Source: Cephalotus follicularis (lineage: Eukaryota; Streptophyta; Magnoliopsida; Oxalidales; Cephalotaceae). Taken from it: a stretch of 64,000 bases of DNA. The DNA is taken from NCBI GenBank assembly GCA_001972305.1, contig BDDD01000556.1, positions 334,032 to 398,031 of the forward strand. The letters are read 5' to 3'. The notes below the pieces were generated by a model that saw only the letters and a list, made by a program, of their open reading frames with translations, was not told the DNA's origin and did not search any database. Position numbers and translations under genes: made by a program. This document shows, in pieces, positions 1 through 63,789 of this stretch. The stretch's first letter is position 1. Each line of letters starts with the position of its first letter.

Positions 1-2337
1 GCCTTTGTATGAATGGCCAGCACGTTCTTCGTCTGCAGAGGTAGCATGCACGGGATTTGTTTAAAGGGCTTACCTAACGCCTTTTCTGAGTGCTGTGTGG
101 TGTGTTGTGCATGTGGGTGTGTTGCCAGAACATGCCTCACATGGCTCATGCAAAGGGGAATCCCCACCTGCTACCTGCAATGCAAAGGATGGTTAAAGAA
201 TGTAAAAGAAATGCAGAAAGGGAGTAGGTGAGAGAGAGTTGGAATGGGGCTGTCAAATGCCAGAATGTGAATGTCGGGGGAGAGCTTCTGCATAAAGGAC
301 ACCCTCCCCACTTGTCTCTCTCGTTTTACAAACACCCGAAGAGAGAGAGAGAGTGAAACAGTGACTGTGTGTATTCCACCATTGTTGAAGCTTGGAGCTT
401 GGACCTTGAAGCTACTGGTGCAACTACGGGACGGACCTAGAGGGGCTGCTGTGACTTCGTGGAATACTAAAAGAGGTGGACTTTTGGTTTCTAACTTGAA
501 ACCAGGGGTAGGGGAAAGCCATACTGTAAATTCGAGTTTAATATCCATGCATAGTTTATGGTTTTGAGTGTATAAAAATGCATGATTCTTGGATTGTTAC
601 TGTTACTGGATTGATGCTATGATATGCTAGATGTGTTTATAGTATCTACATGTTGGTTTCTTGCTGTGAAAACCCGTTATTATGCATGATTGCGGATTGT
701 TATGGCTACTGTTTGATAAGTCGTGAGGTAGAAGACGACCACTGTTGGAAATGACGTCGACTTCTCTTATATAACGTCGACGCTATTATGTAATACGCTG
801 TCGTTTTGAGATTCCAGACCCTAAGACATCGACTTCTTTTTTTTGACATCGACGCCTTTTATGTTTTACCTCGTTACTGATTGAAAGGGATCGACGTCTT
901 TGGAAAGACATCGACACCCTAGGCTGTTTACCTGGTTTCTGTTGAAAAAGGCATCGACGCCTTTTAGTTAGACATCGACGCCATTTCATGATACACTGTC
1001 GTTTAAGGTTCCTTCTGTAGAAGAACACGAGGCTTGGACTTCGACGCATGACTCGAAGACATCGACGTCTTTGGGAAAGACGTCGACGTCTTTGTTACTG
1101 TTTGGAGATTTCTTCATCGGATGACACGGAACGATCCCAATTTCTATTAGGGTGCATTTGAGCATATGTATGCATTACATATGTACTGTTTACTGCCTGA
1201 TGGTGTACTGTTTGTGTATTGTTTATGGTTTCAAAAGTGTTGTGCACAAATGAATTCGGAATGAGATATTTTGAGTATGAAAATATGTATTGATCAAATA
1301 ACGTATTTTCAACCAAACAATTTACACTACTGAAACTGTTACTGATATTTTCTACTGAAAATACTTATTTTCAAATGTTGTAAATTTTGGAAACATTTTG
1401 GAAAATAACTGCCTGTTATTGATCAAATCGATCATCACTGTTTACTGTACTGCTACTGTTTAATTACACTGTTTGCTCTGTGAATTGATTGTGATTGTGT
1501 TTGCGCTGCTAGTTGCGTGGTGGAGGTTGCCAATGATGACTAGTGGTAAGGGCGGGCCTAGGGGCCTGGAGCATGACTGGGTGTCCCACTGTACTGTTGC
1601 CTCACCCGATTGCCCGATGTGGGGATCGTCGTGGGAGTGTAGCGTGGGGCCAGGAGTTGGCGGCGCTATAACTGTTGTTGTGGTCCTATGCGGACATACT
1701 GTACTGTACTGTTTACTGGTCCTTTATGGACATTACTGTGATTATTGACGTAGCCCTGGCCGGGTTACTACTGTACTGTTACTGTGCACATATATTTCTT
1801 ATATATGCAACACTGATATTTTACTGTACCGATATACGTATTTTCTTATATGTATAAAATGGGTCTCCACTGCACTGCATGATTATGCATTCATATCATG
1901 ACATGCATTATGTTAATCCCGATTTACTGTTATGACTTCGCCGAGTGAGGACAAAGGCTAACCCCCTACTGTAACAGATTGATGGAGTGGTCTTGACATG
2001 GAGCAGGCACGGAGATTTAAAGAGAAGACTTGTTATTTTCTCTTATTTTGGGTTGTTGAACAATTATCATGTTATTTGGTTTTGTAACATTGGATATTTG
2101 TTATCTTGTACTATTTTGTTCACGCTCCGTTTTATGGGCAGTTGACTTTTATGACCTGTATTTGGGTAGCGTACGGTATGGGACGTACGTTACGTGACGA
2201 CAGCTTCTGTTCTTTTATGCTTCCGCAACTGTTATGCTTGGAAAAGTTTTAAGATTTTATGGTTTTCACATGAGCTGTATTTATGTTAATTGCCCTTACC
2301 GCTTTAATGCTGCGTTTATTGTAAACGGGGTGTGACA
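1..2337 (+). mobile_element. Family A LTR, 3' portion (cut by window start)
   Basis: Non-coding LTR sequence that aligns by eye along its length with the complete solo LTR at 12789-15467. Shared landmarks are a mucin-like CT/GA-rich leader near 300-380, the GTCGAC-type box array, the CCGAGTGAGGAC block near 1940 and the terminal GGGGTGTGACA ending at 2337. The first roughly 370 bases of the LTR lie outside the window. No primer-binding site follows the 3' end, so this is a solo or 3' LTR. The family is probably Ty3/gypsy from its ends, but no internal coding sequence was seen to prove it. The short ORFs here are not genes. Confidence 0.75.
752..1095. repeat. GTCGAC-type box array in family A LTR
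   Basis: About ten degenerate copies of (A/G)CGTCGACG, arranged as five pairs. The best pair has CATCGACGTCTTT at 1060-1072 and AAAGACGTCGACG at 1076-1088, separated by GGG. The arms are complementary apart from one base, so the pair can form a 13-bp stem. Other pairs lie at about 752-785, 826-862, 889-918 and 950-995. Confidence 0.85.
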
Positions 2338-3912
2338 GGTACGCCCCATAGGTGGGTACAATACTCAGTATTTAATCATTTCGAAAACATTGATTTATCA
2401 AAATCAATTTAAAAACACATAAATATGCTTTCACAAAACATATTTTAACATCGTTCACAACGGTATCATAACATAAATTTCATAGTGAAAACATCAACTC
2501 ATTTATTTTTCACTATAATGAGGTGATCATAACATATCGTAACGTATCGCATCATATGAATAAAGTCGGAAACATTCATAAATGTCAAAAACCAACTTCA
2601 TTTTTGAAACATGTAAAAACCATAAAACATTACCAAGTTCATAAACGAAGAAGCATAGCAATAAGCAAAACTGATTTATTTTGATAAAATCATATGAGTG
2701 TATCAAGGAACGAAGTATCCGTACCTTATGCGTTCACAAAAGCACTTACGGATAGATGATTTAAATCAAACTCCCCTTGAAGCACAACAATCTAAAAGAC
2801 ACCCAAAACAATTCATATAAGGGTCTAAGAAACATTAGAGACGTTAAACAGACTCATTACAGTGTTTAGAAAAGACCCGGATTGATTCGAGGAACAAACG
2901 AATCAAAACAGTTGAAAACAACACTTTTCTGGGCAAAACAACTGACTGTTACAGAGCACCAGCCGACTGGGGAAGCTTGGCAGTCGACTAATCACAAGGG
3001 CCAGCCGACTACACAAGACAGACTGCAGGCAGTCGACTGTCACGTAGATCCAGTCGACTTGTTCATAGGGCAGTCGACTACACAATCCAATACAGCCGAC
3101 TGTTCTGGACGACAGAACAACAGAAATTTGACATTTTAATGCAGAAACCGGTTTAAACGAAAATGACATTAAACCAGAGACATAAGAACATAAACATATG
3201 ACCTTATATGACATTTAGATGATACAAAAACACATAATTGACAGGGTAAAAGATGGACTGTGGCTTAACTTCCAAGGAAGGCAGGAAAATCATTTAACAT
3301 GTGCATACATATATGTCCAGATTTCTGTCCATCATCAATTCCAGACCTTGAAAGGACATAACCAACCTGATTTTTGATGAATGAAACAACACCAGAACAC
3401 ATCAATTTCCACTTGCAATTTCGACAGTGACAGGCTTTGCAAAGGTGAGTGAGATAACCCATAACAACGGCAAGGCATTCTTAAACATGAAAGAAAAGAT
3501 TAATTTGAGGGATGAATAAGGAAAAAGAGGAGACAAGAATCGGATTATTAAGGAAGAAAAGGATTGAAGACATGTAGAAATAATGAAGGGAGAAGAGTGT
3601 TACGGGAGAAGAGAAGAAAGGAAAGAAAGAAAGGAGGAAAGAAGAAAGAAAGGAAAAGAATAAAAGAAAAAGAGTAAAAGAAAAAAAATTAAAATAAAAT
3701 AATATAAAAAGACATAGCATAGGCCCAACCCAACGTACATTAACATATAAACATATCCAAAAATTCAGGCTGGTATCAGTCAACCCAAATCACATAGGCC
3801 TAAACCACAGGGCGGCCGGACTTAAAAATAAAACAAATTTAAAAGCCCGAAAACAACACACATACACATATAAAATGTCCGTAAAGCACATACGAACAAG
3901 TAGGGTATTACA
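2338..3912 (-). mobile_element. LTR-like fragment starting TGTAATACCC (unidentified family)
   Basis: Read on the minus strand, this stretch begins TGTAATACCC at 3912, a typical plant LTR start. It interrupts a family A LTR that resumes at 3913. It contains a long pyrimidine/purine tract (about 3600-3690) and an array of CAG(T/C)CGACT boxes. The other end, near 2338, abuts the end of the first family A LTR and shows no clear CA terminus or target duplication, so that edge is uncertain. No coding region is convincing. Confidence 0.5.
2960..3102. repeat. CAG(T/C)CGACT box array, 7 copies
   Basis: Seven boxes at 12-30 bp spacing, each CAGTCGACT or CAGCCGACT. The full form CAGTCGACTG is a perfect 10-bp palindrome. 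The same boxes occur in the Sirevirus LTR at 28532-28900, but the surrounding sequence here is unrelated to that LTR. Confidence 0.85.
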
Positions 3913-4019: not shown

Positions 4020-4213
4020 GCGGCGACGTTTATCCCCTGGGCGTCGACACTTATGTCCTCTAAGCGTCGTCGCTCTACACTTAGCGTCAGCACTCTCCAG
4101 TGCCTTAAGCATCGATGTTCATTCTTTAGGCGTTGACGTTATAATACGTATTCAATAATAAGATCGCATTTTACAGTCTAAAGCGTCGACGCTTATAACG
4201 TGAGCGTCGACGG
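4020..4213. repeat. GTCGAC-type box array (family A, proximal group)
   Basis: Boxes with core GCGTCGACG occur at about 4020-4052, 4074, 4108-4140 and 4181-4213. The final pair, AAGCGTCGACGCTT and GAGCGTCGACGG, lies in a 33-bp stretch. AAGCGTCGACGCTT is itself a perfect palindrome. Confidence 0.8.
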
Positions 4214-4992: not shown

Positions 4993-5155
4993 TCGACGCT
5001 AAGCGTCGACGTTTACATGCAGGCGTTGACGCTTTGGTCATTTCCTGTAATGGTGTCGACGCGTTCCTTCCACGTTGACGTTTATTTGAATGTTTTATTG
5101 GCGCGTGTTTCAATTGATTAGGTTTCGATGCTTTCCTCAAGGCATCGACGCTTTT
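4993..5155. repeat. GTCGAC-type box array (family A, distal group)
   Basis: Six to seven boxes fall in pairs at about 4993-5036, 5052-5084 and 5121-5155. They match the distal group of boxes in the solo LTR at 12961-13111. The LTR therefore carries two separate box clusters with a pyrimidine-rich region between them. Confidence 0.8.
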
Positions 5156-7034: not shown

Positions 7035-7069
<35 letters not shown>

Positions 7070-8787: not shown

Positions 8788-9861
8788 AAATCATGAACCC
8801 TATCTAAACCTTAAATGAATTACAAACCTTAAATGCCACTTGGGCCTACAAATCGTAAGGCCTAAAGTAGTTTGGGCGCAAAGTTTTCTTAAGGCCCAAT
8901 GTTGGTTTCTGGCCCATTATGAATAGTAAACCCGAGCCAAAATGAATACTGTTTTTCTTCAAACCGAGTAAAATTTTATTTTCTTTCTAAAGTGTTAGGA
9001 ACTTAATAAAAGATACTCTGACTAAGTATTAGACTTATCCGAAGTCCCTAAAGTCATTTAGATGACTTAAAACTCAATTTTTTTTTCAAAATTTGCATGT
9101 GTGTTATTTTGACATAAAAATTGATTTTTTCTTAATATGCTCAAATGTTCAATTAGTTAAGTGTACTAGGAGATAGTAATATAGTGTTGTTTATTCAATG
9201 TGATTGAATGTTAATTCACGATGATAGGTCATGGATTTAGGCTAGATGGATGATCTTGAAATTGAAGTGTTGAATGTATGATAGATTATTGTTTTAATGG
9301 GGAATGTTTGTAATATTATTTTAATTAAGGCTTTCATGCCTCTTCTTCTCTGTAATTGTTATCTATTATTTCTTTCTCTCTTCTTTTGTAATCCCCTCGA
9401 TTATGTGTCGAGGTATTCTTTTATTCATAGTAATGTAAGAAGGACAATGCAAAAGTTGTAGTAAGAAGCATGATGAAGACTGTAATTTATAATGTTTTAC
9501 AACTCCCATAGATTTTATGGGATACAATTGATTCTTGTAATAATCTATCTTAGGTTAAAGACCATATTTATTGATTTAGGCTCAAAGCAATAACCCTTAG
9601 TTGAAGTCCATGATCTACCACTAGTATTAAATGTATGTGATTCATTTAATTATAGTATAAACATGCTATGAAAGAGATTCCAACGGTCTCTCAATATTTG
9701 CTATCTAATTGTCAACTTGACTAATAATGGATTGGCTAAATTAAAGACTCTAATATCCCTCAAATCAAATATCAAGTCATAACGATATGGGCACATCATA
9801 GTATCTAGCCATTGCCTTCCATTATTTCAAGAAATCTAAGACGATGTTGTCAGGTGTAAAC

Positions 9862-10170
9862 CTGTTGGGCTCACCCAGGGGTTTGCATTAGACTATGACA
9901 GGGTTCTTAGGATTCCTTGTGCATGAGATGTGCATTGTTATGGATTATCGATCGAATCCGGTTGGGCTCACCCAAGGGGTTTTATCCTTAGTCTACCACT
10001 TTGTTTTATGATGGGTAAACTTGAATAGTTAGCATAGCCGCTTATTGGGCTCACACAAGGTCTTATGCAACTATAGGCAAAACATGTATTAGGAATATCA
10101 TGAGATGATATTAGAAAAGAGTTTACCTAACCATAAAGAGACATTGCACTTGATGGGCTCACCCAAGGTG
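9862..10170 (+). repeat. Spaced leader repeats, TTGGGCTCACCCA
   Basis: Four copies at about 9864, 9962, 10044 and 10153, some 80-110 bp apart, each followed by an AAGGGGT-like tail. Within each motif TGGG and CCCA are complementary around CTCA, so each can form a small stem-loop in RNA. They lie just upstream of gag, in the same relative place as the repeated motif of the family B leaders. Confidence 0.75.
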
Positions 10171-10721: not shown

Positions 10722-11462
10722 GATGAATTGTTCTATTGTTGGGCCGAACTTAAGCCTTGGTTTGGGCTGGCCAAATGAAGTCCCACAATTTCCAAAAAGG
10801 TTTAAGCCCGGCTACTGTGAAGTCACTGGGCAAGTCTCTAGACCCTTTGCCCAAGAAATGCTTATTATATATGCCAACTCTCTCTCATTTAGGCATTCAT
10901 TCAAGCCTTCAGTTCCAGAGAGAACGAGAGAGTGAGAGAGAAAGAGAGAGCTCGATCCAGTGAAGAACGCTGGGGAAATCAAGTGGTAAGGCGCTGAACC
11001 AAGAGGAGGAGGAAGTGCATATCTAAGTTCTAGCAGCGGGACTATTTTAGAGCTATAACTCGACATTTATCGAGGTAGGCTTTGTTTATATACTTTGCTT
11101 TCAGGCATATTATTACCTTAAATGATGTATGCTCATATGAATTGATAAATGATGCTGCTATGAACTGTCTAATTGATCTAGTATAAACTATTGGGATTCG
11201 CTGATATGAAATGCTAGTCTATGCTAGCGTAAACTACTAGATTAGGACTAGATGATTGATTAAGGATTTCCCTAAGCTATTAGGAGTTGGAATGGATCAC
11301 TGGGGCTTATGATTCTTTTGGATCAAGTGTTAGATTGCCTGTCTGGACTTGAGTTGTTGATGAGAGGATTAGCAGGTATATATGGATGTTCTGCTAAGTC
11401 ATTGGACTGTTGACTCTTCCAATTAGAGTGTTGGTGCTTTGCCTTAGAGACCAGCCCTAATG

Positions 11463-11770
11463 GTTGTACAGCATATCAGTCCTCACGGCTGCAGAGCATA
11501 CCAGTCCCAATGGCTACAGAGCAGACCAGTCCTCATGGCTACAGAGCAGACAAGCCCCAATGGCTGCAGAGCACACCAGTCCTCATGGCTGTAAAGCAAA
11601 CCAGTCCCAATGGCTGCAGAGCAGACAAGTCCTCATAGATGTAGAGCAAACAAGTCCTCATGGCTGTAGAGCAGACCAGCCCCAATGTCTACAGAGCAGA
11701 CCAGTCCTCATGAATGCAAAGCAGACCGGTCTTTATGGATGTAAAGTAGACCAGTCCTCTAGGCTATAGA
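11463..11770 (+). repeat. Minisatellite in Tekay 5' LTR, unit about 24 bp
   Basis: About twelve tandem copies of a unit resembling GCAGACCAGTCCTCATGGCT plus four bases. The 3' LTR has only about seven copies (23785-23950). Confidence 0.85.
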
Positions 11771-12395: not shown

Positions 12396-12960
12396 TACTC
12401 TTCTAAAGAGACTGACATTAAGAGGAAGAATTAGCCAGGCCAAGTATTATCTCAATTTCATCCTTTGCAGCACAAGCAGTGCGTAGACAATGGTAATGAT
12501 CAACCACAATAGAGTAATGTACAGTACATATGAAGCTACCTTAAGCCAGCGAGCCTCATAGTAGTTTGCTACTTTGGCAGAGAAGAGTTTATATATATAT
12601 ATATATATATATATGGTCTGCTATCTCGGTAGAGGGGGCTGAGGAGGACTTGAAAGGACTCTGTATTGATATGCATGGTGACATTGTGACATTTTGGGTT
12701 ATTGCCTAGCATTCATACATCTGTGCATATATTGTATTGCCTACACAATCATGAGTTGCTGACCCATTCTCCAAATGGGTAAGGTTCATGTAACACCCGG
12801 TGTTTTCTTTATTTTAATGCTTCGTTATAAGATGTAATCTTATGCTTGGATTAATGAAAATGTTTGAGATTTCGGCCTCAAGATGTTTCCAAACCCTAAA
12901 TATTGTTTAGGGGAAAGAAATGTGTATGTTAAACAAAAATGGCACAGTTTTGGGACAATC

Positions 12961-13111
12961 GCGTCGATGTCTTTGGAAAGACGTCGACGCCTATGGGAAC
13001 CGAGATGCATGTGAATGCATGTGCATGCACGTCGATGTAGGGCGAAGACATCGACACCCTCTTATGAAAGAGGAAAAGACATCGACGTCTAAGGAAAGAC
13101 GTCGACGCCTT
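12961..13111. repeat. GTCGAC-type box array, first cluster of solo LTR
   Basis: Three opposed pairs. The first is GTCGATGTCTTT-GG-AAAGACGTCGAC, which pairs over 12 bp with one wobble position. The second lies near 13028-13062 and the third at 13075-13111. Confidence 0.88.
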
Positions 13112-13860
13112 TGAAAACAACATCTGTCAAGTTATACACTGACAGAATAACATGCAATGGGGCAACTTTGAGGCATCATTCAGGCACCTTGACATGCACA
13201 ATGCGACGTGTTGATCATGCTGGTGTGTTTCCAGGCATGCTCCAAAACGTGTTCTTCACCTGGTGCATGCAAGAGGATATGACATCCTCACCTGCAACCT
13301 GCAGAAGAGAGATGGAATGAGAGCCAAAAACCAGAGGGTGAGAGGGGTGAGCACGGGTGTGTGTGGATACCTGTGAAGCAAGAGAGAAGGGGAGGGTTTC
13401 TGCCAGCATAAAACACCTCTTTCTTCCCTTCCTTCTCAGCTAAACACAGTGAGGAAAGAGACAGAACAGAGAAAGAGAGAAAGAAGATAGAACCACCATT
13501 GTTGAGCACTTGGAGCTTGGACCTTGGAGCTCCTGGGATTGCAACCTAGGCGAGTTGGAGCTACTGTGAGCAACCCTTGGAACGCAAAGAGGTGGACTTT
13601 CCAGTTCCTAACTTGGAACAACAAGGTAGGAAAAAGTGATGATTCTTATACATGCATTTTGAGTTTTAGGATAATGAATTCCATTGATGAATTGCATGTT
13701 AATGGATGAATTGTAATCTCTGGACTTGTTGTAATGACTAATGTGATGTACGGAGTGAACATGCATGTGCAAATTACATATTCGAACTGGTTGTGTAATA
13801 AATGATTTGGGTAATGACCTGGTGTGTTAAAACTATGGAAACGACGTTCTGGGCTAATTA

Positions 13861-14288
13861 GACGTCGACGTCTACCCAAAGACGTCGATGTCTTCACGTG
13901 TGAATGAAAAAGACATCGATGTTTGAGTAAAAACATCGATGCCTTTTCTGGGTATTCATAGAACAATGGTGTTTACTGCAGATGGTGAACTGGCCACTTG
14001 TGGCTACATGTTTATTTACGGATTGATGTTCTGGTTACATATCCCGATAACCAGTAGCATGTCTTACGCCTTGAGAGGGTGAGTTTTGCTTATACGAGGG
14101 TTTAGGGGCCGGATTCTTCCCCCTACAATCAAGATTCACGAACTGATACCTTCTGGTATCATAAAGACATCGACATCTTTGGAAACGCATCGATGTCTTT
14201 GACCCAAAAATGCCTGGGAATAACTGTACGAGATGTTGGCGCCTTAGGGTAAAGATGTCGATGCCCTAGGAATAAGCATCGACGCTTA
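13861..14288. repeat. GTCGAC-type box arrays, second cluster of solo LTR
   Basis: Pairs at 13861-13946 (two pairs) and 14163-14288 (two pairs), for example GACGTCGACGTCT and AAAGACGTCGATGTC at 13861-13895. About 750 bp separate these from the first cluster, and the GA-rich stretch and likely leader sequence lie between them. Confidence 0.85.
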
Positions 14289-15818
14289 TCCTCATGTTTG
14301 GAAAAATCTCACTCGGATGGGACCCGCTAGACCCGAAACGACTCTAGAAACGATCCTAGATGCATTCTGAGCATATGATTGCATTATTACTGAACTGTGA
14401 ATTGCATTATGGTTGATTTCTAAAAAGTGTTAACCATTTTGAAAAGATTGTATGATTATTATAATCATTATTGTACGAAAATGTATATTTGTCAACATAC
14501 GAATATATATATTTTTGAAATGACTGGGGAAAGTATTTTCCAAAGACGGAGAAATGTTTTAAAGGATTGGTTACACAATTCAAAATGTATTGTTTTAAGT
14601 TTTATAACTTATCACAATCTGAGAACGGAGTAATATATTTTAAACAAATATATTTGATCAAGTAATTATATGTTATTGCTTGACTTGTACTGTACGATGT
14701 TTGTGCTTGTTGATTATTAGCCGCTGTGCTAATAACCTGTTGATTGTTTGGCCGTCGTGCTAAGCAACCTGTACGGAGGACTTACTCCAAACCGTTCGCA
14801 AACGGGGATGGGGTAAGAGTGCATGACGTTGGGGCCAGGAGGTGGCGACGGTCATGACGACTTGTTTGTCTGGTTCCTTTTGGGACATACTTACTGTTTG
14901 TGTTGATGTAGCCTTACGAGGTTATACCTAAATTGTGAACATGCATATACTTTATACATGTATACATTACGATATATATACTGTACTGCATCATAATGCA
15001 TTCATTCATGATACTCATTATCATATACCTCGAACTGCATTTATGAGTTTATTCACTTAGCCGAGTGAGGACTAAGGCTAACCCCTACTGTAACAGATTG
15101 ATGGAGTGGATATGATATGGAACATGCAAGGAGACTTAAGGAAAAGACTGAATTGTTTCTCTTATTTCTTGTACTGAATTAATGAACATTGATTATGTTA
15201 ATTGGATTATTGTAACGTGGTTTACTTCATCCTGTACTGTTTTATCACGCTTCGTTATGGGCGATCGACTATGATGTTGAGTTTTATACGAACTTGTTGG
15301 GTATCACGTAGTATGGGATGTGTGATACATATTTAAATTCAGCTTTTCATGTTATTGCTTCCGCTATTGAAGATTTCGTTTATACGTTTTATCGCATAAG
15401 TTGAATTATGTTGAGTTGATTGCCTTACCGCTTTAATGTTGTCCTCTTGAGAAAACGGGGTGTGACAATTCAGGTACAGGAGATGCACCGCAGTGAGCAA
15501 TTGGGTCAGAGCATAGAGTAAGGACTTTTGTAGGAGAACAACTGCCTTTTCCTACCTTATTGTTTAAGAATGTTGTAAACAGTTTTATTTGACCTGTCGG
15601 ATTGTGGCAGTGCATTTGATATGAGGCAGGACATATTAATGTATACATTTTGGGTCTATCGATATGAGTTAACTTTATGGTTATTTATCTACATACTTGA
15701 CTCTAATAAAGTTTTTAAACTTGTTGGATATTGTGGAAATGATGATAGTGATTCATAGACGGCATGCCACTTGTCAGACTGTGGGGTCTACCCATGGTTT
15801 GGGGCGTGACAGTTAAGG

Positions 15819-16723: not shown

Positions 16724-18893
16724 TGTTGGATAGGGTGACCCGACAAGCCATTGGATGTGCTTATGTATCAAACCTATCTATGTATATAAACAGTATTTTT
16801 CCATATATATGACATGTGCTAATTTGTTTATATTAATAATGGCAATATCACTTGTGTTTTATCACTTAATCGAAGTAGTCTAAATTACCCTACTTACACT
16901 TGTGATGCCCTGACATAAGGTTGGATGCCAAGCATGGAGGCAGTGGGATTGGCTACCTTATTCCTTATGTCGAATTAGTTCCAAGTCATATGTTCACTTT
17001 GTGGGCATTAGTGAATCGGGTAAAGTTGCACGTATGTTTCCTGCTTTTGGGAATTGGATGATTCTCTTACTACCATCTATGTTACGACACTAGGGAAAAT
17101 ACGGGGTGTGAGTTGGGAGCGTGTACACTGAACAGGACTCGCGTAGGAGACACTATTTGGATAGTCGCTATTCTCGTGTCAGAAGTGACTCCTACTTGTT
17201 ATGGTTGTGTATAAGTGCTAGTCACTTTGCGAGTTCTCGAAGTCGTTTGATTCTTAGACCTGAGCGACTGCTCTATATTGTATGAAGACGATTATGCTTT
17301 GATCTCCACCTTACCGAGTTCTTGTGCGGGGCTGGAAATCGGGTGGTATTTGGGTATGATCGAATCTATACGAATATAAGCGAGTGCATAATATGGGATT
17401 GTCACACTTGAGTGAAGGTGATCGGTCCTATTATGGTCTGATTGTACTTTGGACTTACGAAATGCTTGGCCAAGGTCGAGGTGGACTGGAAATTGGATTT
17501 CTGGAGAGTCTACCAAAGGTCCTAGTAATTAATCAGATATTTTATCCATTGAGGTATCATCTAGGGTTGACACGCATCCTTACCCTAGATGTCAATCGGG
17601 GCCAAGTGTGACGAGGTATTATAGTACATGCTAACGATGACTTAAAAAGTCTCGCGTTACGGCAGTGTGTGATAAATTATGAGAAAATTAATTGGATTAA
17701 TTTTTCATGTTGATAGTATTGGATATTAGTCTGGAAGCATTTTAAATAGGTCTGGGACTATTTAGAATGGCTTAACTGATCCCTAAGGGGTATTTCGGTA
17801 ATTTATGAACACCACCGATTTTAACCAAGATTTTAAAGTGTCCCTGCCCGATAATGATTTCTTCATAAATATGTTGGACATATTTAGTCTTGGTGACAGT
17901 TATAAAATCAAATATTTATTAGGTGGATTTTGTGAATTGTGTCATCGTTAAATGGTGACACATTCGCTTAATCTTATTTAATTAATATTCAAAGGGATAT
18001 GTGGCATTACTAAAATGAGTAGGACTCATTTAAGTTATTGTTGACTATTTTCTTGGAGAAGTGAACATGTATCATACAAAGAATAAGTTGGACTCATTTT
18101 TCACACATGTAAGGGCCAGCATGTCTAAGCGTCGACGCCTTTGAAGAATGCATTGACGCTTAGTGCCACAATGCCATGACACCACGAAATCGGGAGCACA
18201 TTTCTCGCACTCCCATCCAGTTTCTCCTTCATAGAGAAATAAGGGGAGCACGTCGACATGATGCTGGTGGGGTTTTCTTAGAAAAAAAAACGATGTGGTG
18301 TGCGATTTGTGCGTGCGACATTTTTGTGTGACCTATTTTCATAAAACAGAGGATGCATTATTGCTGAGGTTGCGTCCAACACTTAGCAATCCCTTCACAG
18401 ATTTCGTTCACAGAACTTGGAGCTAATCTAGGGTGGATTGTGATTGACAATTTTTGTCCAGTTAAATGCATCCTTTGTGAGCATAATTAGAGAGTGTTGA
18501 GTGCGACTTCATTGGCGCAAAACAGAGCATCTACCAAATTTGATTCTTGGTGTTTGGAGCAGCAAGTTCTCAGCGACTTGGAGTAACTAAAAGCTTGAAG
18601 GGAGTCTTCTCAAGCAAGTAACAGCAAATTTGAAGGAGCCATCACCATTCGGTATGATCTCCTTGTTCTTCTCCGTGTCGCCGTGTTCAGCACACAAGCA
18701 TGCATGTGTGTTGATCATTCAATCATGCAATTGATATGGTGTTCCTTGTGACCTGTATTCCCTGTATTAGACCTATTATTAGTAGTGTTAAGAGTTGCTT
18801 CCGTTGCCATGTTTGAACCTGACAAATTTGTTTGTACCTTTAACATACTATGGTCCGATTTCTATATGCAGGGATGGATCACCATTCCCAACA
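16724..18893 (+). mobile_element. Complete solo LTR, family B, in Tekay gag
   Basis: Starts TGTTGGAT and ends CCCAACA, a perfect terminal inverted repeat (TGTTGG/CCAACA), 2170 bp. The flanks are AAAAC (16719-16723) and GAAAC (18894-18898), a 5-bp duplication with one change. Removing it restores the gag frame. It shares blocks with the LTRs at 46549-51077 and 61657-63789. One GTCGAC-type pair is at 18127-18162. Short ORFs in it (such as the one starting at 17384) are not genes. Confidence 0.92.
18127..18162. repeat. GTCGAC-type box pair in family B solo LTR
   Basis: AAGCGTCGACGCCTTT is followed by GCATTGACGCTT. The arms are complementary with a mismatch, and the spacer is short. This copy has one pair where the 46549 copy has about four. 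Confidence 0.75.
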
Positions 18894-26454: not shown

Positions 26455-26526
26455 CCAGCCGACTGGTGTCCTGGTCCAATCGACTGTTTGTGATCCAGTC
26501 GACTGTCCAAAGACACCAGTCGACTG
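26455..26526. repeat. CAG(T/C)CGACTG boxes 5' of the env-like ORF
   Basis: Four boxes in 72 bp (CCAGCCGACTGG, CCAATCGACTG, CCAGTCGACTG twice), about 115 bp before the env-like start codon. The same position is occupied by boxes in the minus-strand copy at 57347-57421. Confidence 0.88.
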
Positions 26527-26640
26527 TTTTTACACAGAACAGATTTTATAAAACGCGATTTTCCTTCTCTCTCACAATCTTTTTTTCCAAAAACACTGCC
26601 CAAACCCTAAAAATCGCCAAAACTCGTCCCTCTATCATCT

Positions 26641-46548: not shown

Positions 46549-48276
46549 TGTTAGATGTAGTGACCCGACAAGCCATTGGATGGGCTGTCGTATTATATCT
46601 ATCCTTGTATATAAACAATCTTATTCTTTTTATCTATGACATGTGCTAATTTGTTATGGCAATATCACTTGTATTTTATCACTTAATTGAAGTAGTTTAT
46701 TATTCAACCTGCTTACGCTTGTGATGCCCTGACATAAGGTTGGATGCCTAGCATGGAGGCTATGAGATTGGTTACCTTATTCCTTATGTTGAATTAGTTC
46801 TAAGTCATAGGTTCACTTTGTGGGCATTAGTGAAACGGATAGACTTGCGTGTATGTTGCCTGCTCATGGAATTGGATGATGGATTCTCTCACTACCATCT
46901 GTGTTGGACACTAGGGCAAATACGGGGTGCGCGCTGGAAGCGTGTACACTGAACTGGACCCGCGTAGGAGACTCTATTTGGATAATCGCTATTCTCGTGT
47001 CAGTAGTGACTCCTACTTGTTGCGGTTGCGTATAAGTGATGATCACTTAGCGAGTTCTCAAACTTGTCTGATCCTTAGACCTGAGCGACTGCTCTATATT
47101 GTATGGAGACGGTTATGCTTTGATCTCCACCTTACCCAGTTCTTGCGCAGGGCTGGCAATCGAGTGGTCGTTGGGTATGATTGAATCTATACGAATATAA
47201 GCGAATGCGTAATAAAGGATTGCCACACCTGAGCGAAGGTGATCGACCCTATTATGGTCTTATTGTACTTTGGACTTATGAAATCCTTGGCCAAGATTGA
47301 GGTAGATTGAAAATTAGATTTTTGGAGAATCCGCCAAAGGTCCTAGTAATAATCAGATATTTTAGATATTTGAGGTTTTATCTAGGGTTGACATATATCC
47401 TTACCCTACACCTCAATTGGGCTCAAGTATGACAAAGGATTATAATACACGTGAACCGATGACTTAGAAAGTCTTGCGTTATGGCGGTGTGTAATAAATT
47501 AAGGAAAAATTAATTAGATTAATTTTTTAATATGGATAATAGTATATATTATTCCGAGAGCATTTAAATTGATCTATGACCATTTAGAATGACTAAAATG
47601 AACCCTAGGGGTATTTCGGTAATTTATGAACACCTCCGATTTAACCAATATTTTATAGAGTCCCTGTCCAATAATGATTAGTTCTTTAATATATTGGACA
47701 TATTAAGTCTTGGTGTAATTTTATCAAATATCGGTTAAGTGGATTTTACATTTGTGGAAACATATTTGCCTAATGTTATTTAATCAATATTAGAAGGGAT
47801 AATATAAGTTAGACTTATACTAATTTTGCTTGACCAGCCACTCAAAGCGTCTACGCCTTCTAGGAAAGCGTCGACGCATTACGGTAGTCTAAGCGTCGAC
47901 GCCTTCTAGGAAGCGTCGACGTTTACCGCATGTATAGGCGTCTATGTCTTTTAGAAAGACGTCGACGTTTTAGTGCATTATTGTATAAGCGTCAACGCTT
48001 TCTTAGAAGGCGTCGACACTTTGTGCACGACATACAAACCTGTTTATGGGCACACGTCGTGGGGCATGTCTTCACTTCCTCTCCAGCCATTTTCTCCTAT
48101 CCTGGCATGATGGGAACTTGTGGGAATCATGGATGCATACTCCCTTAGAGGTAGCACCATGATCCTATGAGAATGGGAAAATGGGAGAGTGGGAGAATGG
48201 GCATGATGGCTGATAATAGTGTGCATGTGAGAGAGAGTTTGGCTGCTGAAAATGATTAAGTGATTTTGTTGGGCAA
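46549..48276 (+). mobile_element. Family B copia 5' LTR, part 1
   Basis: Starts TGTTAGATG inside the Tork gag (flank GGTCA at 46544-46548) and matches the family B LTRs, including the GTGACCCGACAAGCCATTGG block near the tip and a box array at 47846-48023. The solo LTR at 48277-50548 interrupts it. The other part is 50549-51077. This is the 5' LTR of a plus-strand element with leader and gag at 51078-53640. Confidence 0.85.
47846..48023. repeat. GTCGAC-type box array in family B LTR
   Basis: Eight boxes in four pairs, such as GCGTCGACGCCTTCTAGG followed by AAGCGTCGACG at about 47892-47920, and AAGCGTCAACGCTTTC with AAGGCGTCGAC at 47986-48016. Confidence 0.88.
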
Positions 48277-51396: not shown

Positions 51397-51550
51397 AAGT
51401 GTCGACGCTTTTGGTTAAGCGTCGACGTTTATCTCTGTGTTTTTGGTTTTGCGTCGACATCTTTGTATGGTGTCGACGCTTATGTGTTTTTCCATGTTTT
51501 TAACGTTAAACGTTAAGCGTCGACGTTTTTGTTATGGCGTCGATGCTGTC
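51397..51550. repeat. GTCGAC-type box array in family B leader
   Basis: Six boxes in three pairs. GTCGACGCTT-TTGGTT-AAGCGTCGAC near 51400-51425 is a perfect 10-bp inverted repeat with a 6-base loop. The others are at 51453-51483 and 51514-51550. Confidence 0.9.
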
Positions 51551-52330: not shown

Positions 52331-52635
52331 GGTTTGTCATGCCCTAGCTGAGGCTGATAACTTTGGGATACTATGTCAACGTTGGTGTTGGGCACCGCAA
52401 AGGGTGGCTATGTTTTAGCACTTGGATAGTCCTATGTGTGGGTGTTAAAACTAGTGCATTCCAATGAACATTGTGTGTGTTTGACTTATCGAGATTCTGA
52501 TGGTTTGTCATGCCCTAACTGAGGCCATATTGAATCTAAAGCCGAATTTTATGATCGGATATTTTATTACATACAAATTTCCAAGATAGCTTACCCATTG
52601 GATATATTATGGTTTGTCATGCCCTAGCTGAGGCC
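52331..52635 (+). repeat. Spaced leader repeats, GGTTTGTCATGCCCTAGCTG
   Basis: Three copies at 52331, 52502 and 52611, each continuing into AGGC, so that GCC and GGC can pair. The inverted element has copies at about 60016, 60125 and 60298, so number and spacing are roughly kept. Confidence 0.82.
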
Positions 52636-52827
52636 ATAATATGATTGCGATGGATTCCAATCCCCACTAGGAAGTTGGACTTCTCGAGTTCCATATGGGG
52701 GTATGGGATACGATTAGAATAGTGGGAGGAACCATAAGCACTAAAGACTAAGTGTTATGGTTGTCATATTTTAAAAATTGGAATAAATGCTAACTCATGT
52801 TTATATTTCCTTATCTAGGTTGCTAGT

Positions 52828-53640
52828 ATGGCTTTATCAAATGCAATGTCCCGTATACTTGAGACAAACAAACTTGAGGGGTCAACTTCAACAATTGGCA
52901 TCGAAACCTCAAGATCGTTCTTACGGCCAATAAAATGGCCTATGTGATGACTGGGGGGCCTCCTTCATTGCGTAAAGATCCTACGCCCGAAGAGAGTGAG
53001 TGACTAGCCAAGTGGCTAGAGGATGACGTGCAGGCTAGATGTCTTGCCCTCCTTGGGATGACCCTGAGCTTCAGCGTCAAAATGAGAAGATTGAGGCCTT
53101 ATCTGCTATACTACTCCACCTTCAGGAGATATATGGGGTTGAGTCTAGGACTCAAAGGTTCAATCTCTCACGCAAACTCTTCAAGGCGCAGATATAAGAG
53201 GGAGCTTCAGTCCATGAGCATGGATTGAAGATGATAGACATGATTGAGCATCTTGCTCAATTAGGGTTTGTCATGGACCATGATCTGTATGTGGATCTTA
53301 TTTTGACGTCCCTTCTTAGGCCATTCTCACAGTTCTTGGTGAATTTTCACATGAACAAGATAAATGTGACTCTATCTGAGCTGATTGCTATGCTAAGGAT
53401 GGCTGAGGCTGATTTTGACTGTGGGAAGTCAAAGACCCACTCCCTGCTTCTTTCTTCTTTTTCTAGGACTGTCCAAGGAAAGGGCAGTGCCTCGTCTTCC
53501 TCTAAAGGGAAGGGCGTGCTCATACCTATCAACAAAAAAGGCAAGGGTAAGAAGAAGCAGAAGAAGAAGAAGGGTAAGCTTGGAGCTAGTGGAAATGTTG
53601 CCAAAGATCGGATGAAGAAGTTAGTTGTTGAGGTGCTTGT
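52828..53640 (+). pseudogene. Family B copia gag, broken by frameshift and stops
   Basis: Starts MALSNAMSRILETNKLEG, followed by the expected NW motif only after a frameshift near 52900. Stops occur at about 53002 and 53194. Conserved blocks remain: LLHLQEIYG, MIEHLAQLGF, LSELIAMLRMAEAD. A lysine-rich tail (KKGKGKKKQKKKKGK near 53540-53570) comes before the place where the zinc knuckle should be. The frame is cut at 53640 by the next LTR. Copia gag would package the RNA; it is inactive here. Confidence 0.8.
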
Positions 53641-54895
53641 TGTGACATCCGTGTCCTTGTATGGTCGGTGTCTGTGAACCTACGAGGCTTCTGTCTGTCT
53701 GTCTGTTAATCTGTTTTATGGCATTCATGATATGCATCATGAATTTCTTTTTAAATTTTTATGATTTTATTCTGATTTTATTCTGCATAAGAAATGAATT
53801 TGTCTTTCCGTAAATTAAATGATATTTTTCTGAAAAGACTGCTGAATTCAGAAAATAGGCCAAGTGGTATGTCCTAAATATCCGATTTCTGTCCTTATCG
53901 GTTTAATTCTAGACGAAACCAGTCCGTTTTGAGTTATATATATGGAAAATGCAAAAATTTTAATAAAAATTTGGACTTTCTCTCTCATCTCTCCTGCATT
54001 ATCTCTCTTCTCACCCGTCTCCCTCTGCCATCTGCCGTCTGCCGCCGGCGTCAGTGCCGATCTGACGCCGGTGAAGGTACCAGCTGAATCGCCGTCACCT
54101 CCCGGTCACACCGCACCCCTCCTCGGCGCCGGCAACCGCGCTGTAAGCGCCCGACGAGCTCTTCTCTCTCTCCGGCTGTTTTCCGTCGTTTCTCCGTCTC
54201 CGGTGGTCGTCACGGCAAGGCAAGCCCAGGTTCGGACTCCTGGCGTTGCGGCCGTTCGAACGGTGCCAGCCCCGTCCCGTGACGACGTCGGCAGCGCAGA
54301 TCTGTGGGACCACGCACCGGCGACCCTCCGACGAGAAATTTCGGACAGTTTTTCGACTCCATTCTCCGCGATGATGTGATCCGTTCCAGTTCCACTGCGG
54401 GATTCTGACTCTGTGCTTCATTCCGTCGGCTTTCGGTAAATTCTGAACTCTGTTCCGTTAGTTCTGTTTTCCACTGTTTTCTGCATTTCTGTATCTGTTT
54501 CTGTTGCACATGAACTTATTTGCTTATATGACTCGAAATTGGATAACCTAGATGACCACTTGGACTAGCTTTAATGTTTTTGAACGGATGTTTAAATGAA
54601 GGTTTAAAAGATGTTTTTAATAATCTGACTTCTGTTCTGTTAACCGGATTGATCGGTTGTGGTTCTTCTGACATCTGCTCGCATTTCATTGCATAACGCA
54701 TTGCACGGTTTTGTGCATGCTTAGGTTCTGATAGTCTGTTGTCTGTTTGAGTTCTGATGGTCTGCTGTCTGTTTGTCTGTTGGCAGAGGATCCTGCCTTT
54801 GTGGTCGGCCATGGAGGCGACCAGTCGAGGGACTCGCTCGTCTGTACTGTGAGTGGAACGCCTTTCTTTAACCTTTTATTCTGAAATGCTTTTAT
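53641..54895 (+). mobile_element. Gypsy-like LTR starting TGTGACATCC, part 1
   Basis: Begins TGTGACATCCGTGTCC inside family B gag. Its style (repeated CTGTTTGTCTG words, a TATATATATGG box at 53934-53944, then a pyrimidine-rich and GC-rich transcribed stretch) suits a long gypsy LTR. It is interrupted at 54896 by the inverted copia with TTTAT duplications and continues at 63790. Its 3' end lies beyond the window. Confidence 0.7.
54030..54345 (+). other. GC-rich island with a 145-codon ORF (53942-54379)
   Basis: The only markedly GC-rich stretch of the window. The ORF starting at 53942 encodes an Ala/Pro/Ser/Val-rich product (for example SAAGVSADLTPVKVPAESPS) just after the putative TATA box. 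I recognise no domain. It may be a GC-rich transcribed leader of the LTR or a captured exon fragment. Its composition differs sharply from both neighbours. Confidence 0.5.
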
Positions 54896-57346: not shown

Positions 57347-57421
57347 CCAGTCGACTGGCCACTGATGGCAGTCAACTGGCTAGCAATGCAGTCGACTGGA
57401 CAGTTTGTCCAGTCGGCTGTT
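57347..57421. repeat. CAG(T/C)CGACTG boxes 5' of the env-like ORF (inverted copy)
   Basis: Four boxes (one with CAACTGG, one with CGGCTG) about 115-190 bp upstream of the env-like start, the same position as in 26455-26526. Confidence 0.88.
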
Positions 57422-60015: not shown

Positions 60016-60325
60016 AGCCTCAGCTAGGACATGACAAACTATAATATATCCAATGGGTAAGCTTTCTTGCCAATTTGTATCCAATACAATATCCAATCAT
60101 AGTATTTGGCCTTAGATTCAATATGGCCTCAGTTAGGGCATGACAAACCATCAGAATCTTGATAAGTCAGGTACCCACAATTTTCATTGGAATGCACTAG
60201 TTTTAACACCCACACGTAGGCGTGTACAAGTGCTAAAACATAGCCACCCTTTGCGGTGCCCAACACTGACGTTGACATAATGTCCCCAAGTCATCAACCT
60301 CAGCTAAGGCATGACAAACCAACAA
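60016..60325 (-). repeat. Spaced leader repeats, inverted copy
   Basis: Three copies of GCCTCAGCTAGG(A/G)CATGACA-type sequence (complement of the plus-strand motif) at about 60016, 60125 and 60298. Confidence 0.82.
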
Positions 60326-61113
60326 CCCAGGAACACTATTCAATGAAAATCGTGGAAGGCCACAGGGAACCACTCCATGGGTTCCTACGTTAATACTTAT
60401 TATTGTAGTGAGGGAATTTGCGGTCTCTTGTTTTAATTACCAAGCCATTAATTAATTCATTGGTTATATTAGCCAATTTCAATTAATTACGGCTTATCAT
60501 GCAAGACGATTATCTTATGCACCTTGGACATATTTCTAAAATACGTCAATGGATTGGCCATGACAAAATTAGTAATGACTTAAGCCCAAAGTCACTACTA
60601 GGTCTTCCTAGGTGTAAAGATTTAAATCTATTTATTACAATATTAACCATGCATACATGGCCTTCAAAAGTCTTGTACTTCATTTCTCCTTTCTTCTATC
60701 TCTCCTTGCAAGGTCTTCTTTTACAAAAAGAACAATACATTTTTGAAAAGAAATTTACATTTAAAAATTACAAGGAGAAATTACAAAAGTAAGGGAAAAA
60801 TAAATGGTGCACGCAGGCACCTTATTACAGACCTTTAAAGATAATAAATAAATTAAATCCATCCACACAAAGAAAACCATAAACTAGGTCAAAATCCTTT
60901 TCGGGCCATCCATTGTGCATAAGATCTATATTATATCCAATATAATAAAACCACAAATAAAACAAATGCCATAAATGATAACCAATTACTCAATTTAATT
61001 CAATGATTGTTAATTGATCAAACTCCCACTAAATCAAGCAATGATTTTTAATTTTCCAAATGCCAAAATGTATAAAATCCAATTTTATACAAAAACAGTT
61101 TTTTTTTTATAAA

Positions 61114-61358
61114 AGACGTCGACGCCTTAACAAAGGCATCGACGTGTTTTCTGGAAAAACATGAACAAGGCGTCGATGCAAAAAACAAAGCATCAATGCG
61201 TTTCACAAGAACAGTCGAAAAAGGCGTTGACGTCCACCAAGAACATCGACGCGTTTCACAATAGATGATCCAGACATCGACGTCTATCAAGAACGTCGAT
61301 GTCTAGCCTGGATATTTGAACATGACATCGGCGTCTTAACAAAGACGTCGACATCTAT
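61114..61358. repeat. GTCGAC-type box array in inverted leader
   Basis: About ten boxes in five pairs, for example GACGTCGACGCCTTAAC with AAAGGCATCGACG at 61115-61144 and AACAAAGACGTCGAC near 61337. There are more boxes than in the plus-strand leader (six). Confidence 0.88.
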
Positions 61359-61656: not shown

Positions 61657-63789
61657 GATGGAATCGGATATACCGAGTCCGGTGCCAAAATGGATATAGG
61701 TGTGTAGGGTGTAGAATAAAACTTTAAACATACAAACATGCAGCAGAAGAACACCCAATAAAACATATAACGAAACCAATCCATAATGGCACGTCCACAT
61801 CTCACATGGATCACCATAACATCTACTGAATTGAATTGATGTCACCATTGCAAACAATGGTGACACACAAACATGGCATAAAGAAGAAGGACCAAGAATT
61901 ATACCAGTGGGTGTTGGCTCCTTCGTTCTTTGTCCCTCAAGAACAGTAAGTAATCCAACCAGCAAAATCAAAGTGCTTGAACTCACTCTCTCTTTCACTT
62001 AGCTTAGAGAAGGAGTATTGATTATGACCAATGAAGTCAATAATCAATCCACCCTAGATAAGCCTTTGCTTGGTGTTTATCAGATGAAGGAACACACACT
62101 TGCAGAGAAGAATTCGGGGTCAATTGCCCAGCAAAAAATGTCTCAACCTCTTCTTTCAATTTTCTGCAGAAATGCTTATAACTAGCCTATAATTCTCTCT
62201 CCCAATCTCCCATTCACTTAGGATCATGGCCTTCACTCCCTGGGAGTCCGAAGCCATGATTCCCACGTTTCTAAAACGTGGAAAATCGAGAGAAACCGGC
62301 TAAGGATGTGAGAGAAGTAGTGCCCACGATTTGAGGTCGTGCATAGGTTGCACGTTCTGCTCAAAGACGTCGACGCCTGCCAAAAGATATCGACGCCTAT
62401 GCAACGTGGCACTAAAGTGCATCGATACTTTCTAAAAGACATCGACGTTTTTAGCAAAGAAAAGCATAGACGTCTTTCTAAAAGGCATCGACGCCTTCAG
62501 GCCAGTCAAGCATGAAAAGTCTAACTCTTTTAGTGATCTCATATAACTTTCAAATATTGGTTAAGTAAGATTAAGCATATGTGTTTCCACAAAATGCAAA
62601 ATCCACACAACCGATATTTGACACCAAGACTTAATATGTCCAACATATTAAAGATCTAATCATTATAAGGCAGGGACCCTTTAAAATCTTAGTTAGTACG
62701 AGAGGTGTTCATAAATTACCGAAATACCCCTAGGGTTCGGTTTAGCCATTCTAAATGGTCCTCGATCAATTTAAATGTTATCAGAATAATATCTAATATT
62801 ATCCAGATGGAAAAATTAATCTAATTAATTTTCTCATAATTTATTACACACCTCATTAACCCTAGATTTTCTAAGTCGTCTGTTCACGTGTACTATAATC
62901 CCTTGTCATACTTGGCCCCGATTGAGGTCTAGGGTAAGGATATGTGTCAACCCTAGATAGTGCCTCAATGGCTAAAATATCTGATCATTATTAGGACCTT
63001 TGGTAAACTCTCCAGAAATCTAATTTCCAGTCTACCTCAACCTTTGCCAAAAATTTCATAAGTCCAAAGTATAATCAGACAATAATAGGGCCGATCACCT
63101 TCGCTCAGGTGTGACAATCCTTTATTGCGCACTCACTTATATTCGTATAGGTTAGATCATACCCAAAGACCACCCGATTGCCAGCCCTGCGCAAGGACTG
63201 GGTAAGGTGGAGATCAAAGCATAACCGTCTCCATACAATATAGAGTAGTCACTCAGGTCTAAGAATCAGACGAGTTTAAGAACTCGCTAAGTGATCATCA
63301 CTTATACAGAACCGCAACTAGTAGGAGTCACTACTGACACGAGAATAGCGACTATCCGAACAGTGTCTCCAACGTGGGTCTATTCAGTGTACACGCTCCC
63401 AGCGCGCACCCCGTATTTGCCCTAGTGTCCAACACAAATGGTAGCGAGATAATCCATCCTCCAATTCTATGAGCAGGCAACATACGCGCAAGTCTATCCG
63501 GTTCACTAATGCCCAAAAAGTGAACCTATGACTTGGAACTAATTTGACATAAAGAATAAGGTAACCAATCTCACAGCCTCCATGCTAGGCATCCAACCTT
63601 ATGTCAGGGCATCACAAGTGTAAGCAGGCAAATTCTAAACTACTTCAATTAAGTGATAAAACACAAGTGATATAGCCATAACAAAATTAGCACGCATCAT
63701 ATATTTATACAAGAATAAGATTGTTCCATACATGGTAAGATATAATATGACAACCCATCTAGTGGCTTGTCGGGTCACCATATCTAACA
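61657..63789 (-). mobile_element. Complete 5' LTR of inverted family B copia (2133 bp)
   Basis: On the minus strand it starts TGTTAGATAT at 63789 and ends CCGATTCCATCA at 61657, one base before the PBS. The TTTAT duplication lies outside the start. Together with the solo LTR at 16724-18893 it defines the family B LTR at full length (about 2.15 kb). Confidence 0.9.
62364..62493. repeat. GTCGAC-type box array in inverted family B LTR
   Basis: Six boxes in three pairs: GACGTCGACGCC with AGATATCGACGCC, CATCGATAC with GACATCGACG, and CATAGACGTC with GGCATCGACGCC. Confidence 0.85.

Follow-up and report, generated by a model that had tools for sequence, protein, structure and literature searches.

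The stretch considered here, referred to below as the window, comprises 64,000 nucleotides of the Cephalotus follicularis genome (assembly GCA_001972305.1, contig BDDD01000556.1, forward-strand positions 334,032 to 398,031). It is a nest of plant long terminal repeat (LTR) retrotransposons adjoining one intact receptor-kinase frame (34193 to 36118), and it has no Rfam match. Four groups of elements in this nest, their limits set by eye and with BLAST, carry arrays of short boxes around the core GTCGAC: the Del-type gypsy LTRs of family A (copies A1 to A4), the copia elements of family B (B2 to B4), the Sireviruses S1 and S2, and an LTR termed X. A preliminary description had assigned boxes with a single core to these four families. 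The positions it gave are right and the core is far above shuffled sequence, RTCGAC giving 136 matches (both strands, the palindromic GTCGAC counted twice) against 25.1 ± 6.2 and at most 37 in 100 dinucleotide shuffles. The single core did not survive: there are two box types, or dialects, with GTCGAC common to both. The class-1 box, AAAGRC-RTCGAY-GYCTTT, occurs in family A LTRs and in the LTRs and leaders of family B; the first position of its core, A or G, is the inner base of an outer CpG within the 18-bp palindrome. The class-2 box, CCAGYCGACTGS (CCA-GYCGAC-TGS), occurs in the Sirevirus LTR, in the region upstream of Sirevirus env-like genes and in LTR X. The arrays and their carriers are as follows (window coordinates).

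759 to 1085, plus strand: downstream class-1 array of A1, a Del-type gypsy LTR; 10 boxes in 5 pairs, centre gaps 20, 52, 20, 42, 20, 43, 21, 87, 21
2965 to 3098, LTR probably on the minus strand: class-2 array of LTR X (2338 to 3912); 7 boxes, gaps 21, 21, 28, 21, 20, 22; the LTR starts TGTAATACCC
4024 to 4208, minus strand: downstream class-1 array of A2; 7 boxes
5007 to 5146, minus strand: U3 class-1 array of A2; 5 boxes, LTR start TGTAACGCCC at about 5342
12792 to 15468, plus strand: solo LTR A3, TGTAACACCC...GGGGTGTGACA, inserted in an LTR of gypsy family C
12966 to 13104, plus strand: U3 class-1 array of A3; 5 boxes at the scan threshold
13867 to 14281, plus strand: downstream class-1 arrays of A3; 8 boxes in 4 pairs
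18134 to 18255, plus strand: two class-1 boxes of B2 (LTR about 16738 to 18885), separated by 121 bp; a decayed partner lies 21 bp from one of them
24497 to 26119, plus strand: gag of S1 (PF14223, E 9e-31; zf-CCHC)
26461 to 26522, plus strand: pre-env class-2 array of S1, immediately ahead of the env-like gene; 4 boxes, with TATAAA 25 bp past the last box centre
28538 to 28895, plus strand: LTR class-2 array of S1; 13 boxes, TATATA 48 bp past the last box centre
31765 to 32282, minus strand: downstream class-1 arrays of A4; 12 boxes
33097 to 33234, minus strand: U3 class-1 array of A4; 5 boxes
47852 to 48015, plus strand: LTR class-1 array of B3 (copia); 8 boxes in 4 pairs, gaps 21, 25, 20, 25, 21, 30, 21
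51404 to 51542, plus strand: leader class-1 array of B3, about 320 bp 3' of the primer-binding site; 6 boxes in 3 pairs, CATAAA 8 bp past the last box centre
53198 to 53674, plus strand: gag remnant of B3 (Retrotran_gag_2, E 8e-6, 25.9 bits, under the Pfam cut-off of 27)
57352 to 57414, minus strand: class-2 array of S2, upstream of the env-like gene (PF20167, 38.9 bits, under the cut-off of 45); 4 boxes
61120 to 61349, minus strand: leader class-1 array of B4; 10 boxes in 5 pairs, gaps 20, 32, 19, 31, 19, 34, 20, 34, 20, TATAAA 9 bp past the last box centre
62371 to 62489, minus strand: LTR class-1 array of B4; 6 boxes in 3 pairs

The division into two classes is borne out by counts within each family, compared with 200 shuffles per family. 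RTCGAY occurs 50 times in A against a shuffle mean of 5.8 (maximum 13) and 26 times in B against 6.1 (maximum 12). By this core alone neither the Sireviruses (9 against 4.0, maximum 11) nor X (4 against 0.9, maximum 5) are significantly enriched, and elsewhere it is near background (family C, 6 against 3.8; D, 0 against 0.9; E, 3 against 1.4; F, 3 against 6.7). With the fitting class motif all four families stand above shuffled sequence: class 1 is found 28 times in A and 13 times in B (shuffle mean 0.0, maximum 1), and class 2 is found 24 times in the Sireviruses against 0.2 and 7 times in X against 0.0 (maximum 2 for each). Unbiased 8-mer counts recover the same words. The top word in both A and B is CGTCGACG; in the Sireviruses CAGTCGAC comes first, with AGTCGACT and CAGCCGAC also high, and in X AGTCGACT comes first, with CAGTCGAC also high. 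An overlapping-core word, GTCGACGTCGAC, was considered as the box and rejected, its genome-wide count (59, against 56 for a reversed control) being that of background.

Families were also compared by the flanks of their boxes, with the 6-bp core excluded from the model. Trained on A, the flank-only model accepts 19 of 26 sites in B, none of 29 in the Sireviruses, none of 8 in X, none of 36 other sites and 27 of 4000 random positions; trained on the Sireviruses, it accepts 5 of 8 sites in X and none in A (0/50) or B (0/26). Because the models cross-accept in this way, class 1 joins A with B and class 2 joins the Sireviruses with X. In scans of the whole window, the A-trained class-1 model gives 52 matches in A, 33 in B, 1 in the Sireviruses and 2 in the 31,913 bases that belong to none of these families. 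The class-2 model, trained on the Sireviruses, is looser (plus strand: Sireviruses 22, X 7, elsewhere 6; minus strand: 21, 7 and 4). Both were trained on the window's own boxes, the independent check being the genome-wide counts and the sampled stretches of contig C80 given below. Most class-2 cores in the S1 and S2 arrays read CAGYCGACTG; the box CAGTCGACTG is a palindrome and CAGCCGACTG an imperfect one. Asymmetric class-2 boxes keep a single orientation, with 13 CCGAC and no GTCGG over four arrays (X read on the plus strand). Unmasked, A and B share many matches, as do the Sireviruses and X; with the boxes masked, neither pair shows any similarity at E ≤ 0.01. What remains between families is two matches of C with D and one of 61 bp (E 0.001) between the B leader and S1, the last qualifying the earlier statement that the families share nothing between boxes.

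The boxes are not scattered within their clusters. A degenerate scan yielded 84 class-1 and 28 class-2 boxes in the families used for training. A neighbour at 19 to 21 bp accompanies 76 of the 84 class-1 boxes (A 46/52, B 30/32), while random placement in the same clusters (2000 runs) gives 11.3 in A (maximum 26) and 6.9 in B (maximum 19). Among the eight boxes left without a partner, five have a recognisable, mostly decayed or shifted match 19 to 23 bp off, two have a TCGA-bearing site with poor flanks 18 to 19 bp off, and one has neither. Class-2 boxes form runs of two to four at 19 to 22 bp, and all 28 have such a neighbour: 21 of 21 in the Sireviruses against 8.1 at random (maximum 18), and 7 of 7 in X against 1.7 (maximum 7), so that X taken by itself lies within the random maximum. 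As to promoters, a TATA-like word follows within 9 bp of the last leader box in both B3 and B4. TATA-like words also stand after both S1 arrays, at 26547 and 28941, an arrangement that fits an internal promoter for the env-like gene, a point that the 2010 paper on Sirevirus boxes (PMC2829016) did not settle.

The assignment of the carriers bears on how widely each dialect is shared. In Del elements the commonest U3 end is TGTAACACCC, and U5 has GGG at -8 to -10, according to the portions of PMC4029996 compared. Three family A copies start TGTAACRYCC (A3 TGTAACACCC, A2 TGTAACGCCC, A4 TGTAACGTCC), and A1 and A3 end GGGGTGTGACA; family A is classed as Del-type gypsy because these termini match that published attachment-site signature. 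A3 is a solo LTR and the other copies are truncated or cut, so the assignment rests on LTR ends; no internal region of family A was identified in the window. Family B has the primer-binding site TGGTATCARAG after its LTR and a copia gag remnant, which in B3 shows no similarity to the Sirevirus gag. S1 and S2 combine copia gag or reverse transcriptase with an env-like gene, whose PF20167 match is below the cut-off in the window pieces; all of the 120 relatives listed, out of 247, bear Cephalotus follicularis names. X was assigned to gypsy by its first bases alone.

Further loci, designated by L numbers, carry the same boxes in elements of both superfamilies. At L019 a gypsy integrase end (SH3_Tf2-1, E 1.4e-27) and a purine tract are followed by an LTR with a class-1 array. 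At L021 a gypsy-type LTR with class 2 is preceded by a purine tract and a frame that reads, by eye, like the end of a gypsy polyprotein, with an RT-RNaseH domain some 0.6 kb upstream. With these arrays standing directly after gypsy-type coding sequence, the earlier claim that unrelated copia and gypsy lineages carry the same box is upheld. Relatives may also differ in dialect. Among Sirevirus-type LTRs homologous to that of S1, class 2 is found in S1 and L008 (twice) and class 1 in L011 (twice) and L021, and arrays of either class lie between matching landmarks on both sides (short in L021 and in the first LTR of L008); L009 and L013 have class 1 too, with S1 homology on one side only. One family of gypsy-type LTRs is present in both L021 (minus strand) and L005, where its copies are collinear and 67-75% identical, start TGTAATAACCGC and end GTGTGACA; both of its array positions are class 2 in L021 and class 1 in L005. 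From L019 and family B, the S1-type LTRs, and L021 with L005, it follows that both dialects are present in copia as well as gypsy LTRs and that relatives differ in dialect in two lineages.

Mixtures occur as well. The class-1 arrays of L011 (at 5669) and L009 (at 6324) each include a class-2-like box, and one box in L005 is a hybrid, half class 1 and half class 2; this fits gradual drift as well as wholesale exchange. L008 carries class 2 also ahead of its env-like gene (PF20167 above the cut-off), and in L011 degenerate class-1-type boxes, identified by eye, lie between pol and the next start codon, one of them passing the scan. At L011:5412-5764 class-1-type boxes often have a shifted centre (such as AAGCGTCAGCGCTTT) and perhaps represent a third, related dialect.

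Counts beyond the window point the same way. The genome searched has 1,577,397,061 bases in 9746 contigs, the window being C556:334032-398031. Exact class-1 pairs at 20 bp number 2127 against 7 for the reversed control. Pairs of CGTCGACG 12 to 42 bp apart number 24,004 against 66, and pairs of AGTCGACT 153,145 against 452; a further palindrome centred on CG is GGTCGACC, the pair counts covering the first two words. Genome-wide, box pairs thus stand far above control. Spacings of 19 to 22 bp are seen at 37 of the 50 CGTCGACG places listed (contigs C1 to C3) and at 78 of the 100 AGTCGACT places listed (first 0.48 Mb of C1). Contig C80 was sampled in 20 evenly spaced 10-kb stretches, which represent one contig and not the genome at random; 11 of them have class-1 arrays of at least 3 boxes and 3 have such arrays of class 2, and matches exceed mononucleotide shuffles for both (class 1, 101 against 5; class 2, 57 against 21). 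A survey of all 256 palindromic 8-mers in these stretches and both flanks of the window (220 kb) ranks two TA repeats highest in enrichment, followed by CGTCGACG (21 against 0.27), AGTCGACT (23 against 1.48) and CATCGATG (16 against 2.23). In the same 220 kb, the commonest distances between recurring identical 7-mers are 21 bp (257), 20 bp (161), 24 bp (154) and 23 bp (141), and those recurring most at 19 to 22 bp are almost all box words. A pattern search of viral contigs for related loci matched 12 stretches, none of which encodes a relative.

How the boxes change is also informative. A search that made no use of the central TCGA gave 79 boxes, of which 65 have an intact central CpG and 47 and 49 intact outer ones. 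Changes at the outer CpGs are lopsided, inner ones outnumbering outer ones by 24:8 and 24:7, and on account of this unevenness CpG decay alone was rejected as the origin of ATCGAC. The two halves of class-1 boxes vary independently (Fisher p 1.0 and 0.51), as expected for half-sites. Between A copies, box regions are above background conservation in five of six pairs (0.56-0.74 against 0.52-0.62 over all six). Taken with the poorer alignment of boxes in B, given below, this indicates that arrays turn over while the motif persists. At one position outside the CpGs, the two arrays of an element agree in their A/G flavour (r 0.895 among 5 elements, a value reached in 5 of 120 permutations; element effect p 0.0012), and both arrays are of the same dialect in S1, L008, L021 and L005.

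These observations led to the proposal that the arrays are binding platforms for a dimeric, probably host-encoded protein, that they act as cis-regulatory sequences, that the two dialects answer to two factors, and that lineages change their arrays; we give this reading a probability of roughly 55%. Each palindromic box would be read by a dimeric, sequence-specific DNA-binding protein. Neighbouring boxes are about two helix turns apart, which would place the dimers on one face of the DNA and might allow cooperativity. The arrays would flank the presumed LTR promoter (A and B) or sit just upstream of TATA-like boxes (S1 LTR, env-like gene), from where they may tune transcription or silencing of the element. 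Class 1 and class 2 would be read by two different or diverged factors, and lineages would gain, lose and change arrays. A dimeric reader is favoured by the two-turn spacing, the independent half-sites, the kept central CpG and the agreement in flavour or dialect between arrays that lie far apart in one element. Since each dialect is common to copia and gypsy lineages that are not related to each other, host proteins are the most likely factors. To this extent the common host factor of the preliminary description is supported, since the sharing fits a shared trans-acting factor; its single core for all four families does not. A broader proposal, that a two-dialect regulatory code is common to unrelated copia and gypsy elements, that a few factors read the phased arrays, and that elements in several lineages have switched all their arrays together, as might happen in an arms race or when elements turn from one reader to another, is tentative and held at clearly less than even odds.

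Several results weigh against the binding-platform reading. In B copies the boxes align worse than background (0.65-0.74 against 0.72-0.84, in the three comparisons, out of four, that have aligned boxes), and a second flavour position is less concordant between arrays (r 0.582, 19 of 120 permutations). Helical periodicity past the nearest neighbour is weak or uneven, with best periods of 9.8 bp in A, 10.8 in B, 10.5 in the Sireviruses and 10.1 in X; for this reason only the 19 to 22 bp spacing is claimed. The U3 array of family A ends about 300-370 bp ahead of the presumed TATA, and in S2 no TATA-like word follows the class-2 boxes. Finally, the class-1 palindrome was matched to no known plant factor.

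VANDAL elements are DNA transposons. Their VANC anti-silencing proteins target short motifs in fast-evolving tandem repeats, and VANC6 motifs occur also in the unrelated transposable element AT9TSD1 (PMC5735166, in the parts compared). By analogy, the reader may be encoded by one or more of the transposable elements themselves, other elements having acquired its target boxes to their profit. The fast turnover of arrays, their co-variation within an element and the dialect differences between relatives would suit such a protein, and the likeness extends to short, fast-evolving, non-coding motif arrays that differ between relatives and are shared with an unrelated element; the VANDAL motifs, however, are not CpG palindromes, and their known binder is encoded by the element (PMC5735166 and PMC10398659, as far as compared). 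Here no candidate gene was found, most of the array-bearing copies seen are solo LTRs or fragments, and the env-like PF20167 protein beside the class-2 boxes has no PDB relative by sequence and a model of low confidence (predicted local distance difference test score 38.8). Since sharing across superfamilies makes a host reader likelier, an element-encoded one is considered unlikely. Methylation without any specific binding protein, the arrays being targets or shields of the methylation machinery, is in line with the CpG density of class-1 clusters (observed/expected 1.0-2.4 against 0.60 for the window, at a GC content of 0.41-0.50) and with the CpG islands published for Sirevirus and Del LTRs (PMC2829016 and PMC4029996, parts compared). 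It does not account for the conservation of spacing and of the CpG-free flanks (AAAG..CTTT, CCA..TGG), class-2 arrays are not CpG-rich (0.53-0.75), the central CpG is kept above the outer ones, and the lopsided outer changes are not the even split expected of simple deamination. This explanation, which the preliminary description had also offered, is thereby weakened to the point of being quite improbable.

In maize, small interfering RNAs (siRNAs) have been linked to the palindromic cis regions of Sireviruses, and two palindromes spaced 20 nt apart form an inverted repeat by themselves, so that foldback is geometrically possible. The boxes might then act as RNA or single-strand foldbacks, that is as hairpins, dimerisation signals or siRNA sources. 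Tests of the hairpin were negative: there is no compensatory change between halves, A-C mismatches (86) exceed G-U pairs (65), and Watson-Crick pairs are only slightly in excess over re-dealt halves (495 against 474.7 ± 9.9; 28 of 1000 reach 495). Several arrays moreover lie upstream of the presumed start site, and this mode of action must be regarded as highly improbable. The sharing might instead reflect history: a single array could have moved from one lineage to another through recombination or template switching and spread afterwards. The common GTCGAC core, the matching dialect positions and the mixed boxes of L005 and L011 suggest that some arrays derive from one ancestral box, and spacers would lose their homology fast. 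The latter point also leaves the independent acquisition previously proposed without support, since the turnover of arrays would soon erase the traces of a transfer. Sirevirus LTRs and one family of gypsy LTRs have the two dialects at corresponding positions, and some arrays are mixed, all of which points to replacement or drift as well as gain. However, no spacer sequence is common to the families, the arrays occupy different places (U3 and downstream in A, LTR and leader in B, LTR and pre-env in Sireviruses), and transfer alone leaves unexplained why box and spacing are kept while spacers change. As the whole explanation it is very unlikely.

Other repeats and one gene complete the description of the window. 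Leaders of copia B hold several copies of a motif around GGTTTGTCATGCCCTARCTGAGGC (52339-52640 and about 60040-60340), and a comparable repeat, around GGGCTCACCCAAGG, lies at 9860-10170 in a copia element that spans about 7-10.6 kb; both were identified by eye. The LTRs of gypsy family C have a 25-bp tandem repeat without palindrome boxes (11448-11759, 12.5 copies; 23779-23934, 6.2 copies). The frame at 34193-36118, intact between nested elements, encodes an LRK10L-type receptor kinase whose best named relatives among those listed are about 70-77% identical.

A 2016 paper reportedly described palindromes in maize Sirevirus LTRs. Repeated motifs (RM boxes) had been published in 2010 as Sirevirus-specific by Bousios et al. 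(PMC2829016); in the parts of that paper compared they are palindromic and numerous, lie ahead of TATA in the first half of the LTR and have extra copies upstream of the env-like gene, and the Vitis RM, CGGTCGACCG, has the GTCGAC core of the boxes described here. S1 agrees with this pattern, in number (17 boxes, 13 in the LTR and 4 pre-env, where RM elements have at least 8 palindromic boxes) and in position, its LTR boxes lying shortly upstream of TATA; S2 has 4, with no LTR array identified in the part scanned, and pre-env arrays occur in both. Published RM boxes, except in Tnd-1, bear a CGG-CCG signature that the S1 and S2 boxes lack, and no spacing is given for them in those same parts of the paper. 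Unlike RM boxes as described there, the present ones are not restricted to Sireviruses: the L019 gypsy LTR and copia B carry class 1, and the gypsy-type LTR of L021 carries class 2. They also keep a spacing of 19-22 bp and come in two dialects, which relatives have at corresponding positions. Cruz et al. (2014, PMC4029996) described CpG-rich regions of variable length in Del-type gypsy LTRs. Eudicot Del elements are reported there, in the portions covered, to be without CpG islands, while family A is a eudicot Del-type LTR with CpG-dense boxes; a term search of that text returned no mention of a palindrome or tandem repeat for Del LTRs.

Host factor sites in LTRs are known from ONSEN and other Brassicaceae COPIA elements, whose heat-responsive elements were gained repeatedly, partly by duplication of short precursors (PMC5059998). 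These are nGAAn clusters read by HSFA2 in COPIA LTRs, heat-responsive GYPSY elements being mentioned too, and the parts of PMC5059998 compared describe no paired palindromes or dialects. The same source gives for MCIRE the motif CCGAC (C-repeat/dehydration-responsive element, CRT/DRE), also the core of asymmetric class-2 boxes. Of the 28 class-2 boxes, 25 fit the CBF/DREB motif (CBFHV, RYCGAC) in the direction scanned (12 GCCGAC, 11 GTCGAC, 2 ATCGAC), and cold or drought factors would, from this short fit, be candidate class-2 readers. None of the 84 class-1 cores has GCCGAC, and class 1 conserves 18 bp; the agreement with the CBF/DREB site is through a short motif only.

The Sirevirus box was already known. 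Among the matches listed in the open-access literature, subscription journals not being covered, there was no report of a box shared by copia and gypsy, of the fixed spacing or of the dialect change. Together, the shared palindromes and the dialect differences suggest that a few DNA-binding proteins act on many elements. To the general question of how retrotransposons of different lineages come to answer common host signals, or jointly escape silencing, this one genome brings many natural replicates: two box types, both superfamilies, and homologous LTRs with either type at both positions. With these, the reader protein can be found by direct biochemistry, and what the published but unexplained Sirevirus boxes do can be put to the test.

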